Source: Methanococcoides alaskense (GTDB lineage: Archaea; Halobacteriota; Methanosarcinia; Methanosarcinales; Methanosarcinaceae). Taken from it: a stretch of 64,000 nucleotides of DNA. A model generated the notes under the pieces. That model ran no database searches. It was not told the DNA's origin and worked only from the letters and a program-made list of their open reading frames with translations. Made by a program: the position numbers and the translations under genes. Below, piece by piece: positions 45,672 through 64,000 of the stretch (its first letter is position 1; each line of letters opens with the position of its first letter). The stretch is taken from NCBI RefSeq assembly GCF_027594145.1, contig NZ_JAQFFK010000003.1:248001-312000 (forward strand), read 5' to 3'.

Positions 45672-48164
45672 TTATGCTTTCTTCAATGTGACCCAGAACA
45701 TACTACCTTGTCCTTCAGGATTATCTTCCACACCAACTTTGCCTTTATGGAGTTCAACTATCCTTTTTACGATGGCAAGGCCAAGCCCGCTTCCCTTTAT
45801 ACTCTTGTTTCCCACACGTTTGAAACGTTCGAATACCAATGGCTTGTCTTCGTCTGAAATACCTTCGCCTGAATCAGTAACCGCGATCTTACAGTTATCG
45901 TCCGCATCTTCAATTCGGACCACTATGTCCCCTTTGTCAGATCCGTATTTCAATGCATTTGATATTAAATTGATGAAAACTTCCTCTATCATTGGATTTG
46001 CAAGTGCAGTGCATGACCCTTCCGAAATTATCCTGATATACACACCTTTTTCTTCTGCCTGATACTCAAAGTTGGCTATAACGCCATTTATCATATTGCC
46101 AACATCAATGGTTTCAAACTCCATATCATCGGTAGAATCCAGTTTGGCAAAAGCAGCTGCACTTTCAATAAGTTCAATAAGGTTTTTGGTACTGAGATCG
46201 ATCTTTCCCAATCTTTTCAGCTTCGTTTCATCATCTTCTGAAGAAAGCATCATGTATGTATATCCACTTATTACAGTTGCGTGGTTCAATAGATCATGTC
46301 GCATGATGTCTGTAAAGATATCTTTGAGTTCATTTGAATGCTCAAGTTCTTCAGAGTATTTTTTAAGCAATTTTTCGGACCTGACACGTTTTGTGATATC
46401 AAGGATGGCTCCAATAAGTCCTAACGTTTCTCCATTCATATCCGTGAAGACCGATTTGTGGAATATCACATCTTGTCTGCTTTTTGTCACTGGATTTTCG
46501 ACCTGACCTTCGTATATCTGCGTACCTTCGCTGGCCATGAGGTCCATATCCATTTCGTGATATTTATACGCAAGATCATTTTGACAAAGCTCATATACAC
46601 TTTTTCCAATAATATCATCTTTCTTATGAGCTGTCATATCTTCGAAAGCTTTGTTACATCCGATATATAGTCCTTTTTTGTCTTTATAGAACATCGGTGC
46701 AGGTATAGCGTCCATCAGTTCCTGAAGGAAATGAAGCTGTTTTTTCAGTTTGTTTTCTGATTCCACGCGCTGAGTAATGTCAAGGATAACTCCTATGAGT
46801 CCTGCAGTTTCTCCATTCATGTCAGTGAAAACGGACTTATTGAAAAGGACATTACGTTCTGTATTATCTCCCATGTAAACGACCTCAGATTCGTATGTCT
46901 GTGTTCCGCCGTTCTTCACAAGTTCCCGGTCCATATGGTGGTATTCTTCAGCCTGCTTTTCATCATATACCCCATATGCATCCTTTCCTACCATATCCTC
47001 ACATTTTGAACCGGAAAATGTCTCAAAGGCCCCGTTGCAGCCAAGATAGTTCCCATTCTTATCTTTATAGTACACAGGTGCAGGGATCGCTTCAAGCAGT
47101 TCCTGCATGAAATGGGCGTGCTTTCTTTGGGCTTCCTCTGCCTCTTTACGCTCTGTTATATCGAAAACGGCACCGATCTGTCCTGCAACGTTACCATCTA
47201 TATCTGTGAAAACCGAATTATTGAAAATAACTGCACGTTTTTGTCCGGAAACTGATCGCAAGTAGTACTCGTATGTCTGAGTTCCTCCCTTTTCAATGAG
47301 CTCCGTATTCATTTGATTGTACTTCTCTGCGATATCGTTCTCGTACAGCTCATAAACACCTTTTCCGATCATATCTTTTTTTGGTATGCCTGTAAATTCT
47401 GCAAAAGTATTGTTGCATCCAAGGTAGATCCCGTCCTTGTCTTTATAGAATATTGGCACTGGAATGGCATCGATAAGTTCCTGCATGAAATGAACTTGTT
47501 GTTTTTTCACCTTCTCGGCTTCTTTTTGCCTAGTGATATCATTTCCAATTGCAATTGAGCCAATGGTCTCGCCGCTCTCATCAAGAAGATTCCTTGAATT
47601 CCATGATATTATACGCTCTTTCCCATCTTTTCGTTTGATCACAGTTTCAAATCCTGAGACCTTCTTTCCTTCGTTTATGATGGCATTAGCTGTGGCGAAT
47701 ATCTCATTTCTATATTTTTTATCAGGATATAAGTGATCCCATATTTTTGTCGTTCCAAGTACTTCTTTCCTGGAATATCCACTTATGGCCTCCGCAGCAT
47801 TGTTCCAAACAATTACTTCTGCATCCTTGTTGAGGACATTTATCCAGACATCTGCACTTTCAATGATGGTCTGCTGGAATTGGTTAAGTCTGTACAGATC
47901 TTCTTCGGCAAGTTTTTTCTCTGTAAAATCCTGCACTGTAAAGGTAACCCCTGTCGAAGGGTCATTAACATCGATAAGTGCAAATGTCATATAGATATCT
48001 CTGATATCCCCGTTTTTGCGAACCCATTGTGATTCTATCAGACCTGGTTTTTTGCTATCGATAATTCTCTTCAGTTCTTTGCCGACACGTTCGTATTCTT
48101 CATGACTTGGATAGAGCATCTCAGTATTCTGTCCGATAAGTTCCTCTTTTGTATATCCGAACAT
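45672..48164 (-). CDS. Multi-PAS sensor histidine kinase, part downstream of the amber codon
   Basis: 830 residues starting at an internal ATG. It contains five PAS domains: the first resumes at MFGYTKEELIGQNTEML, then one with ESADVWINVLNKDAEVIVWNN, then three near-identical copies opening (I/A)IPxPxFYKDK-GxYLGCN. The histidine kinase core follows: H-box MRHDLLNHATVISG (about residue 600), N-box INLISNALKYGSDKGD, G1 DSGEGIS, G2 GSGLGLAIVKRIV. The frame is the same as in the upstream gene, and the codons between 48290 and 48165 continue a PAS domain without a gap, so this ORF by itself starts in mid-domain. Ends in TAA. Confidence 0.9.
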   Translation of the reverse strand: MFGYTKEELIGQNTEMLYPSHEEYERVGKELKRIIDSKKPGLIESQWVRKNGDIRDIYMTFALIDVNDPSTGVTFTVQDFTEKKLAEEDLYRLNQFQQTIIESADVWINVLNKDAEVIVWNNAAEAISGYSRKEVLGTTKIWDHLYPDKKYRNEIFATANAIINEGKKVSGFETVIKRKDGKERIISWNSRNLLDESGETIGSIAIGNDITRQKEAEKVKKQQVHFMQELIDAIPVPIFYKDKDGIYLGCNNTFAEFTGIPKKDMIGKGVYELYENDIAEKYNQMNTELIEKGGTQTYEYYLRSVSGQKRAVIFNNSVFTDIDGNVAGQIGAVFDITERKEAEEAQRKHAHFMQELLEAIPAPVYYKDKNGNYLGCNGAFETFSGSKCEDMVGKDAYGVYDEKQAEEYHHMDRELVKNGGTQTYESEVVYMGDNTERNVLFNKSVFTDMNGETAGLIGVILDITQRVESENKLKKQLHFLQELMDAIPAPMFYKDKKGLYIGCNKAFEDMTAHKKDDIIGKSVYELCQNDLAYKYHEMDMDLMASEGTQIYEGQVENPVTKSRQDVIFHKSVFTDMNGETLGLIGAILDITKRVRSEKLLKKYSEELEHSNELKDIFTDIMRHDLLNHATVISGYTYMMLSSEDDETKLKRLGKIDLSTKNLIELIESAAAFAKLDSTDDMEFETIDVGNMINGVIANFEYQAEEKGVYIRIISEGSCTALANPMIEEVFINLISNALKYGSDKGDIVVRIEDADDNCKIAVTDSGEGISDEDKPLVFERFKRVGNKSIKGSGLGLAIVKRIVELHKGKVGVEDNPEGQGSMFWVTLKKA

Positions 48165-48290
48165 CTTGTACAGTTTGTCATTAACATCGAGGAACTTGCG
48201 TGCCCATGTGATCCCTATTCCTGTTGGTGTTGCCTGGAATATACTCCGAATATGTCTCTTTTTCTTCTCCTTTTCCAGGTCTATCCTTTT

Positions 48291-48293
48291 CTA
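48291..48293 (-). other. In-frame amber (TAG) codon, candidate pyrrolysine codon
   Basis: The TAG follows DITE and is followed in the same frame by KRIDLEKEKKKRHIRSIFQA and a PAS domain. Seven equivalent PAS-end linkers in the same protein have K, H, K, Q, R, R or R at this position (for example DITKKKLAE). An AAG to TAG change is one base. Readthrough as pyrrolysine or a nonsense mutation are the alternatives. Confidence 0.6.
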
Positions 48294-49553
48294 TTCGGTG
48301 ATGTCCTGTGCGGTAAAGGTCATTCCTACTTCGGGATCTTTGGGATCTACCAGAGCTACTGTTAGTAGCACGTCAATAGGGGTTCCTTCCTTTTTTCTGA
48401 GCTTTGTTTCGACAGTTTCCGTTGTTCTGTCTTTTATAAGCTTAATAAGCTCAATACCAACTTTATTGTACTCCTCTTCGGAATCGTAACATATCATTAC
48501 GTTCCTTCCGATGAGCTCTTCTCTTGAGTAGCCTACAATATCACAGAATCCCTGATTCACATCTTTGAATACCCTATCCCAGACAACACCAATCCCGATC
48601 GGTGTGGCAAGGAATATACTTCTGTTCTTTGCTTCCTTTTCTCGAATGGTCCTTTCAGCAAGCTTTTTCTTAGTGATATCCTGCATTGTGAAAATATACC
48701 CTTTTGAAGCATCGTCAGGGTCTGCAAGAGCAAAATTAAGCAGTATGTCTGTTATCTGTCCGTTCTTCCTTTTGAAAGGGTACTCTACAGTAGCTATTCG
48801 TTTTTCAGTTAGATCGGGGTATATCTCTTCCCCGGCCTTTTTGTAATCTTCATTGGAAAGATAGAATTTCCGGGTATCCTGCCCTATCATTTCTGACCTT
48901 TGATACCCTGTCATACGACAGACTTCATCGTTCACTTCCAATATCTTCCTACCAGTAACTTTTCCAATTCCGATCGGAGCTACACGCAATATACTTTCTG
49001 AAAGGGCCTTCTCTTCTTTCAGGGAAGCTTCAATTTCCTTTCGTTCCTCAATTTCCTTTTTTAGGTCCTCGTTGGCCTTTGTCAGTTCAGCGGTCCTTTC
49101 ATCAACAAGCTTTTCAAGGTGTTTGCGATCTGTCCGCAGATCCTCTTCCGTGAGCTTATGTTCGTTTATATCCCTGAGAACTCCAATGATGCCTGCTGAG
49201 CTACCATCTTTATTGCTCTGGAACTGTGGCAGGTTTTCCATCCAATGTGGATTTCCTTCGCTATCGACCAATCTGAAAGTTGTATTAATAGCTCTACGAC
49301 TTTCCATCGTCTTCCAGAACTCATCAATGAGCCTTTCACCATCACCCGGGTACACGTAGTCTTTAAAATGAGTGTTCTGTATATCTTTTGGATCGAGGCC
49401 ATAGTGATTCATCTGTGGGCTGATATAAAGTACAATTCCTTCTGAATTCACTATGTAGAGGATATCACTTGTATTCTCTATGAGGAACTTGTATTTCTCC
49501 TCCCCTTTGTTCACAAGATCTTCAATAGAGACAAAACGACCGTTTTCTGTCAT
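48291..49553 (-). CDS. Multi-PAS sensor protein, part upstream of the amber codon
   Basis: 420 residues: PAS domain 1 (about 15-130, YKFLIENTSDILYIVNSEGIV), a coiled-coil linker (LRTDRKHLEKLVDERTAEL), PAS 2 (about 188-290) and PAS 3 (about 305-410), ending at DITE followed by TAG (48291-48293). There is no signal peptide or membrane segment, so sensing is cytoplasmic. Without reading through the TAG, this protein has no kinase domain, and the kinase part would have no full fourth PAS domain. The ribosome site AAAGGTAGG precedes the ATG. The whole gene is 45672-49553 (1293 codons plus stop). Confidence 0.9.
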   Translation of the reverse strand: MTENGRFVSIEDLVNKGEEKYKFLIENTSDILYIVNSEGIVLYISPQMNHYGLDPKDIQNTHFKDYVYPGDGERLIDEFWKTMESRRAINTTFRLVDSEGNPHWMENLPQFQSNKDGSSAGIIGVLRDINEHKLTEEDLRTDRKHLEKLVDERTAELTKANEDLKKEIEERKEIEASLKEEKALSESILRVAPIGIGKVTGRKILEVNDEVCRMTGYQRSEMIGQDTRKFYLSNEDYKKAGEEIYPDLTEKRIATVEYPFKRKNGQITDILLNFALADPDDASKGYIFTMQDITKKKLAERTIREKEAKNRSIFLATPIGIGVVWDRVFKDVNQGFCDIVGYSREELIGRNVMICYDSEEEYNKVGIELIKLIKDRTTETVETKLRKKEGTPIDVLLTVALVDPKDPEVGMTFTAQDITE

Positions 49554-50787: not shown

Positions 50788-50837
50788 GTAATCCCTCTAT
50801 TTTATAATTAAATAAGCAAGAATACCACCCATTTTAA

Positions 50838-52163
50838 TTTCGCATTAAAACGAAGATTTAATGGGAGTTTCATTTCATCGAAAACATCCAGATTAATCTG
50901 GATGTCTTGCAGTGTAACTGCAAGATGAAACAGATGGATGAATTGCGTAAAAAGTTGTTTGTTCTTGTTTCTGATATATATTAGTAGTATCAAAGCGTAT
51001 ATAATAATATGCGGAAATCCTACAAATTCCGTCTGTACCCGGCCAAAGAACAGGAGATTGTTCTGGTCAAAACTCTGGACGTATGCAGATACATCTACAA
51101 CGAGTTTCTTTCGGACAGAAGGGATGCGTATGACCGATGCAACCAGGGATTAACGACATTTGACCAGATAAATCAGGTCAAGTATATCGAGTGTAGGACT
51201 GAAGTATTCTCACAGATCAAACAGGATGTATTGCGAAGACTTGGAAAATCATTTGATGCTTTTTTTAGACGGTGCAAATCAGGTGAAACGCCAGGGTATC
51301 CAAGGTTCAAAGGAAAGGACAGGTATAACAGTTTCACATATCCTCAATCTGGTTTCAGGATAGAAGGAACTAAACTGAAACTTTCCAAGATAGGGAGTAT
51401 CAAAATTAAACAACACCGAGAGATAGAAGGCAAGATCAAGACATGTTCTATCAAACGTAAAGGGGATCAATGGTATGCAGTCTTTTCTGTTGATATGGGT
51501 ACAAGTCCTGAAAAGATCGATCCTGTTACATTCATAGGGGTCGATGTGGGGCTTAACTCGTGTGTCTCATTGAGCAATGGGGAACAATTCGATTCTCCTA
51601 CATATTACCGCAAGTCTGAGAGGTCCTTTGCAGTCCAGCAGAAGAGACTGAGCAAGAAGAAAAAGGAATCATCAAACCGTCTTAAACAGAAACTTAAAGT
51701 TGTTAAGGTTCACAGAAAGATACGTAACCAGAGACTTGATTTTAACCATAAGTTGAGCAGAATCCTTGTCGACAGGTTTGACTGGATAGTGTTCGAGGAT
51801 CTGAGCATCAGGAATATGGTTAAGAATCATCATCTTGCAAAATCAATAATGGATGTTGCATGGGGTCAACTGATCCAGATGGCAAAAAGCAAAGCGGAAG
51901 AAGCTGGCAAGTATGTCGAATTGGTTAACCCATACAATACATCACAGAAATGTAGCAGTTGTGGAAACATTGTCAGGAAAGGTCTATCGGTCAGGGTACA
52001 CAAGTGCCTCGAGTGTGGACTTGAGCTTGACAGGGATGTTAATGCAGCAATCAATATTCTAAATCTATGCACCGTAGGGACTACGGAGAGAGCCTGTGGA
52101 GTCACGGACGTTGGTCTGGGCTATGAAACAGGAAGTCACCTATTTTAATAGGTGGTAGTTCAC
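50838..52163 (+). mobile_element. IS605-type (IS1341 group) element with solo tnpB
   Basis: A single tnpB flanked by hairpin-rich ends and with no tnpA nearby. Left: hairpin CATTAAA/TTTAATG (50843-50863) and a three-way junction at 50873-50930 in which TTTCATC pairs with GATGAAA and encloses a perfect 22-bp palindrome (50884-50905) and an 8-bp stem (CTTGCAGT-GTA-ACTGCAAG, 50906-50924). Right: CACCTATT-TT-AATAGGTG (52137-52154) overlapping the tnpB stop, then GTAGTTCAC. Ends are estimated from these structures. The element would depend on a transposase encoded elsewhere for movement. Confidence 0.6.
51009..52148 (+). CDS. tnpB: TnpB RNA-guided endonuclease (IS605 OrfB family)
   Basis: TnpB is a compact nuclease guided by an omega RNA derived from the 3' end of its own element. 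The 379 residues show the N-terminal helical part (YKFRLYPAKEQE), the RuvC catalytic residues in FIGVDVGLNS (Asp), IVFEDLSI (Glu) and LDRDVNAAINIL (Asp), and the zinc ribbon CSSCG/CLECG between the last two. All catalytic positions look intact, so it should be active. The 3' end of the gene and the hairpin at 52137-52154 are the probable omega RNA region. Confidence 0.93.
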   Translation: MRKSYKFRLYPAKEQEIVLVKTLDVCRYIYNEFLSDRRDAYDRCNQGLTTFDQINQVKYIECRTEVFSQIKQDVLRRLGKSFDAFFRRCKSGETPGYPRFKGKDRYNSFTYPQSGFRIEGTKLKLSKIGSIKIKQHREIEGKIKTCSIKRKGDQWYAVFSVDMGTSPEKIDPVTFIGVDVGLNSCVSLSNGEQFDSPTYYRKSERSFAVQQKRLSKKKKESSNRLKQKLKVVKVHRKIRNQRLDFNHKLSRILVDRFDWIVFEDLSIRNMVKNHHLAKSIMDVAWGQLIQMAKSKAEEAGKYVELVNPYNTSQKCSSCGNIVRKGLSVRVHKCLECGLELDRDVNAAINILNLCTVGTTERACGVTDVGLGYETGSHLF

Positions 52164-63294: not shown

Positions 63295-64000
63295 GTGGAC
63301 CCCTCAATAGAATTGAAAATACTCGATAAAATTAATCTTATAAAAGAGGCCATATCTAAGAAAGAAAAGGTGCTTGTTGCTTTCTCAGGAGGCGTGGATA
63401 GCTCAACTCTTGCTGCTCTGGCTTTTGATGCATTGGGGGACAATGCTCTTGCTGTCACCCTTTATTCACCTGTGATCCCGCAAAGTGAACTTGAATATGC
63501 AAAAAGAACAGCAGAAGTTATTGGAATAAGACACATTGTTGTTGACCATGACATTCTTTCCGATGAGCGTATAAGAATGAACGATCCTCAGAGATGTTAT
63601 TATTGCAAGAAGCAATTTGTCAAGAAGCTAAAAGGCGTAGCTTCAGAGGAAGGGTTGAATGTGATCATGGAGGGGACAAATGCTTCCGAAATAACCGGTC
63701 GCCGACCCGGGCTGGAAGCCCTGAGGGAAGCTGGATCCTCGATCTTTACCCCTTATGTAGAGTTCGATGTAAGTAAAGGGGAAGTTCGCCAGATGGCATC
63801 CTATCTCGGACTTGATGTTGCTAATCGACCTTCAAATTCCTGTCTTCTTTCAAGACTTCCTTATGGCACTGAAGTGACCTCTGATATCCTTGGAAAAATT
63901 GAAACTGCGGAAGATCTCATTCATTCCTTGGGAATTTCTTCTGTAAGGGTGCGGGTACACGATGATATTGCCCGTATCGAGGTATAGCCTGTGGATATTC
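63295..64000 (+). CDS. larE: LarE-type ATP-dependent sulfur transferase, frame crossed by an amber codon (3' end outside window)
   Basis: LarE-type PP-loop enzyme. Seen: PP-loop SGGVDSS (about residue 34 of this start), the cluster-type cysteines CYYC in PQRCYYCKKQF and the third cysteine in SNSCLLSRLPYG, matching the [4Fe-4S]-containing LarE group rather than the single-cysteine type. After VRVHDDIARIEV there is a TAG at 63985-63987, but the following codons give PVDI, which fits the family pattern RIEV-x-PED-(I/F) beyond this point. The frame therefore probably continues off the window. The GTG start at 63295 is preferred over the ATG at 63238, which would add an unrelated hydrophobic tail. 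Confidence 0.82.
63985..63987 (+). other. In-frame amber (TAG) codon in larE, candidate pyrrolysine codon
   Basis: ATC GAG GTA TAG CCT GTG GAT ATT: the family motif RIEV is followed by TAG and then by PVDI, which aligns with the conserved P-E-D of the family. Only two TAG-terminated frames exist in this window and both are internal to conserved proteins. Alternatives are a genuine stop, a nonsense mutation or a sequencing error. Confidence 0.6.

Follow-up and report, generated by a model that had tools for sequence, protein, structure and literature searches.

The Methanococcoides alaskense genome (G000) carries a multi-PAS sensor histidine kinase gene that contains a single in-frame amber codon, and this TAG is most probably decoded as pyrrolysine, with the full-length kinase being made (probability about 0.83). 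The gene lies in a 64-kb stretch of the genome, here called the window, whose positions serve as coordinates. In the proposed scheme, 45672..49553 on the minus strand would encode one 1293-residue multi-PAS kinase, and a recent CAG-to-TAG transition would have converted the codon for the Gln that opens an inter-PAS linker into amber. The products of pylTSBCD would supply pyrrolysyl-tRNA(CUA), by which the TAG would be decoded as pyrrolysine and the full-length kinase still produced. The relevant features of the locus are:

45672..49553, minus strand: complete gene read through the TAG, predicted 1293-residue sensor kinase with eight PAS domains and HATPase_c (profile matches, full-length orthologues)
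48291..48293, minus strand: in-frame amber TAG at residue 421; the three orthologues have CAG (Gln) here
48294..49553, minus strand: N-terminal part, 420 residues with three PAS domains; the sole product if the TAG terminated
48165..48290, minus strand: 42 codons from the TAG to the next ATG, comprising the linker and the first half of the fourth PAS domain (protein-level conservation, dN/dS 0.10-0.28)
45672..48164, minus strand: C-terminal part, 830 codons from a Met inside a PAS domain, with the remaining PAS repeats and HATPase_c

The first-pass annotation had described a multi-PAS kinase split by an in-frame TAG, and this was confirmed: the TAG at 48291-48293 is the only one, and the rest of the 1293-codon gene is open. 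The TAG-terminated ORF (48291-49553, minus strand) spans 420 codons, and the same frame continues open down to 45672, adding 872 codons free of TAA and TGA. Such a length is beyond chance expectation, as is the full-length homology of the kinase to unbroken orthologues. A Pfam/NCBIfam search placed PAS domains on either side of the TAG and a HATPase_c domain at the C-terminus; eight S-box stretches are distributed across the whole protein, and the combination of PAS repeats with HATPase_c identifies it as a PAS sensor histidine kinase. The HisKA match is weak (20.7 bits against a cut-off of 26.9), with an RHDLLNH motif visible by eye. At the PAS-end linker position that matches the TAG site, the seven other repeats carry H, K, K, Q, R, R and R, the residues listed in the first-pass annotation apart from their order. 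As in pyrrolysine proteins, the single in-frame TAG is flanked on both sides by homologous sequence in one frame.

A separate downstream gene starting at the ATG at 48164 was considered and rejected, as this start falls in the middle of a PAS domain and the 42 codons preceding it are conserved as protein. The Met is itself a conserved PAS-domain residue, and no Shine-Dalgarno-like sequence was seen by eye ahead of the ATG; an independent translation start is therefore unlikely. Two further in-frame TAGs lie just upstream of 49553 on the minus strand (LLTE-O-F.ER-O-ATS-M) and are kept in all four species. They probably belong to the leader sequence, where a GGTAG Shine-Dalgarno-like motif overlaps, the alternative being an N-terminal extension.

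The best relatives belong to Methanococcoides. A scan of genome contigs yielded only three orthologues and distant bacterial matches. The orthologues, from Methanococcoides seepicolus LLY (G006) and the genomes G007 and G008, are 94%, 90% and 91% identical to it, respectively, and gene order around the kinase is the same in all three. The gene is full-length and in one frame in G006 and G007; in G008 it is in one frame and lacks one PAS repeat. The orthologue alignment suggested in the first-pass annotation thus returned fused single-frame proteins in all three cases, with no downstream decay or frameshifts. The G008 orthologue (L015, G008:C9) is without one of the similar PAS repeats, and this 127-column gap suggests the loss or gain of a repeat. 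Elsewhere in the window, an insertion of ~1.35 kb (50806-52155) carries an ORF (51009-52148, plus strand) resembling an IS605-type TnpB on visual inspection; the syntenic site of G006, G007 and G008 lacks the insertion, the alignment breaking at 50805/52156.

Codon 421 is CAG (Gln) in all three orthologues, and the TAG is private to G000. The M. seepicolus gene has a TAG of its own, in place of the CAG that the others carry at alignment column 334. Each of two close species accordingly has one amber in this kinase gene, and the Gln codon affected differs between them. Homologues in G002 and G004 (about 54% identical) share a common TAG after 'NKG' near the N-terminus, at a site where relatives carry GAG, AAG or GAA.

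The first-pass annotation had named a nonsense mutation as the alternative. With a recent mutation of this sort, the TAG would terminate translation, a 420-residue PAS protein would remain, the kinase would be lost and the gene would be an incipient pseudogene. As the TAG is private to one genome, there would have been little time for decay, and the G000 branch is relatively rich in amino-acid changes upstream of the TAG (48294-49553), with 21 nonsynonymous to 17 synonymous changes versus 3:12 in G006. Against this, the downstream frame is intact and under purifying selection. The 872 downstream codons are free of indels and of additional stops, and dN/dS is not raised: in pairs with G000 it is 0.21-0.30 upstream of the TAG versus 0.17-0.18 for all downstream codons, and 0.10-0.28 for the 42 codons between the TAG and the next ATG, a segment with few changes. 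Changes specific to G000 downstream of the TAG number 12 nonsynonymous to 20 synonymous. A pseudogene would be expected to show relaxed selection, frameshifts or additional stops past the TAG, none of which was found. Purifying selection appears to be the same downstream of the TAG as upstream, and part of this signal may predate the TAG on the G000 branch. The independent amber at another codon in M. seepicolus, the pyl system of G000 and a genus that nearly lacks TAG terminators, with TAG mostly inside conserved genes, likewise speak against termination, and we consider a nonsense mutation improbable.

The search for pylT, pylS and pylBCD that the first-pass annotation had called for found all of them in G000. 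PylS, PylB, PylC and PylD score far above the curated cut-offs, a tRNA-Pyl with anticodon CTA is encoded, and the pylT/S/B/C/D cassette is complete; the mttB and mtbB genes of the same genome contain in-frame TAG. On the basis of this machinery we infer that pyrrolysine, rather than another suppressing residue, occupies codon 421; its actual insertion, and the efficiency of that step, would follow from the same reading. No PYLIS-like RNA structure was detected downstream of the kinase TAG (z -0.09), and such an element is not essential for decoding (PMC2933860). The pylB gene of G000 (L042:8705-9817, minus strand) ends in TAG, followed by 42 open codons, and M. burtonii pylB likewise ends in TAG (PMC2933860). 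TAG may still terminate pylB, and because this gene is still TAG-ended, reassignment of the codon is perhaps incomplete.

To assess the status of TAG in the genus, stop codons were surveyed in 784 kb of sampled stretches from three genomes: 384 kb of G000 and 200 kb each of G001, which we take to be the M. burtonii DSM 6242 chromosome, and G005. Sampling was at even spacing in G001 and G005; in G000 some stretches had been picked for kinases or pyl/methyltransferase genes, so that its internal-TAG rate may be somewhat high. Called genes ending in TAG amounted to 12/317 (3.8%) in G000, 3/175 (1.7%) in G001 and 3/185 (1.6%) in G005, and an automatic score found a coding-like extension past the TAG in 12 of these 18 genes. 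As a true terminator, TAG was thereby left with about 1% of genes in sampled Methanococcoides, versus 12-15% in the comparison genomes G013 and G066. With the same procedure, TAG ended 15 of 99 genes (15.2%) in G013, a pylS-positive member of another genus, none of the 15 with a coding-like extension, and 14 of 120 (11.7%) in the pylS-negative relative G066, where three of the 14 scored as coding-like; in G039 it ended 3/73, none coding-like. TAG makes up 0.18-0.20 of stop-like trinucleotides in every genome compared, a near-constant share, and the difference in TAG terminators is therefore not a matter of base composition. Genes ending in TAA or TGA with coding-like extensions were discounted, since by eye the extensions resemble in-phase neighbour genes with their own starts.

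Rarity as a terminator is matched in the sample by the presence of TAG inside many unrelated genes. Conserved families spanning an internal TAG are larE, an ABC ATPase and a cobaltochelatase-like protein, the first of which is the second amber gene of the window:

63295..64000, plus strand: larE (TIGR00268) with TAG at 63985-63987; conserved C-terminus beyond the window end (L163)

Its TAG, 13 bases short of the window end, is probably internal on closer inspection, as is, with less certainty, that of an AlkZ-like gene of G000; these two come on top of the 12 genes picked out by the automatic score. Ambers were also observed in G001 in a cobaltochelatase-like VWA protein (L074:13643-15268) and a HerA-type helicase (L075:7748-9031). 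With so few TAG terminators and most TAGs standing inside conserved genes, the codon is best read in Methanococcoides as a general pyrrolysine sense codon. The same survey bears on an assembly or sequencing error, with CAG as the true codon. A single assembly, 76.6% complete, provides the TAG at codon 421, which differs from all orthologues by one C/T base; yet internal ambers occur throughout G000 and other genomes of the genus, single-contig ones included, which makes an amber here unexceptional. Such an error is the least probable of the explanations considered.

The proposal in the first-pass annotation that the TAG could be decoded as pyrrolysine thus held with respect to the pyl system, the fused orthologues and the intact downstream sequence, whereas the orthologues carry Gln rather than the expected Lys/Arg or TAG. 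Its further suggestion, that kinase signalling is tied to pyrrolysine supply, was not supported. In such regulated readthrough, the supply of pyrrolysyl-tRNA would determine how much short PAS protein is made relative to full kinase and thereby link signalling to methylamine/pyrrolysine status. The arrangement is mechanically possible wherever TAG is ambiguous, and the substrate-dependent UAG decoding of Acetohalobium offers a precedent (PMC8211752). However, a functionally required pyrrolysine calls for an amber position conserved among orthologues, and here the codon is Gln in each of them, with the amber of the sister species at another site; there is no special RNA structure, and nothing else singles out codon 421. 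We therefore regard regulated readthrough as very improbable, slightly more so than a nonsense mutation. Decoding of codon 421 as pyrrolysine looks instead like tolerated drift in a genus nearly without TAG stops. Because the TAG is private, the orthologues have Gln and the sister species has its amber at a different Gln codon, the Gln-to-Pyl change would be a near-neutral replacement.

A search with another amber kinase of G000 revealed a different pattern, with 12 kinases from eight Methanococcoides genomes sharing a TAG at one identical position:

L087 and L117-L127: G000 (C1:342614 and C1:495183), G001, G002, G003 (two), G004, G005 (two), G009 (two) and G010

The shared site lies in the HATPase_c domain, just past the N-box (NSLKFTPENGCI-TAG-INA). 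Pairwise dS among these kinases ranges from 0.16 to saturation. Invariant columns contain 40 four-fold degenerate sites, all but one of which vary among the 12 kinases, so long persistence of a neutral TAG is very unlikely. Selection apparently maintains the codon, which supports decoding over a long period and suggests that the residue may be required at this position. No methylamine genes were seen beside the conserved-amber kinases in four 20-kb stretches, judged from protein starts. Kinases whose matches seemed to include a TAA or TGA served as a control and as possible counter-examples; none of the eight examined has a stop within the kinase core, and mid-kinase stops are therefore amber only among those examined. 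A broader reading, in which TAG is a general sense codon in Methanococcoides, the pyrrolysine by the N-box is selected and functional in signalling, and the window kinase is an example of drift, is put forward tentatively, as rather less than an even chance.

The window kinase illustrates how a stop codon turned sense codon may be taken up by drift, as seen in the ambers at different Gln codons in two close species, and a third amber in a more distant homologue fits the same picture. Standard annotation would cut the kinase in two and clip genes such as larE. The conserved-amber clade, in turn, provides a direct test case for a role of pyrrolysine beyond methylamine metabolism.

With regard to known systems, the methyltransferases MtmB, MtbB and MttB also rely on this cassette to decode an in-frame amber; theirs is conserved and at the active site, whereas that of the window kinase occupies a variable linker position. 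Heinemann et al. 2009 reportedly found pyrrolysine in the tRNA-His guanylyltransferase (Thg1) of Methanosarcina acetivorans and ascribed it to 'neutral evolution'. Thg1 is likewise a non-methyltransferase with one in-frame amber missing from relatives and a near-neutral reading; it is a different protein, and Methanococcoides in addition nearly lacks TAG terminators. An archaeal 'Pyl code', in which certain archaea use TAG generally as a sense codon for pyrrolysine, is said to have been described by Kivenson et al. in Science 2025; the Methanococcoides case resembles it, on genomic evidence alone. A parallel in protein type is cluster 16 of PMC3639795, a sensory transduction histidine kinase of M. 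acetivorans, M. mahii and M. barkeri, predicted to contain a UAG that the three organisms share and that was proposed to be less neutral. Likened here by description, it too is a Methanosarcinaceae sensor kinase with an in-frame UAG, and its sharing among organisms places it nearer to the conserved-amber clade than to the window kinase. Candidate amber kinases and neutral ambers have already been described in Methanosarcinaceae (PMC3639795), and the window kinase is of this known kind.
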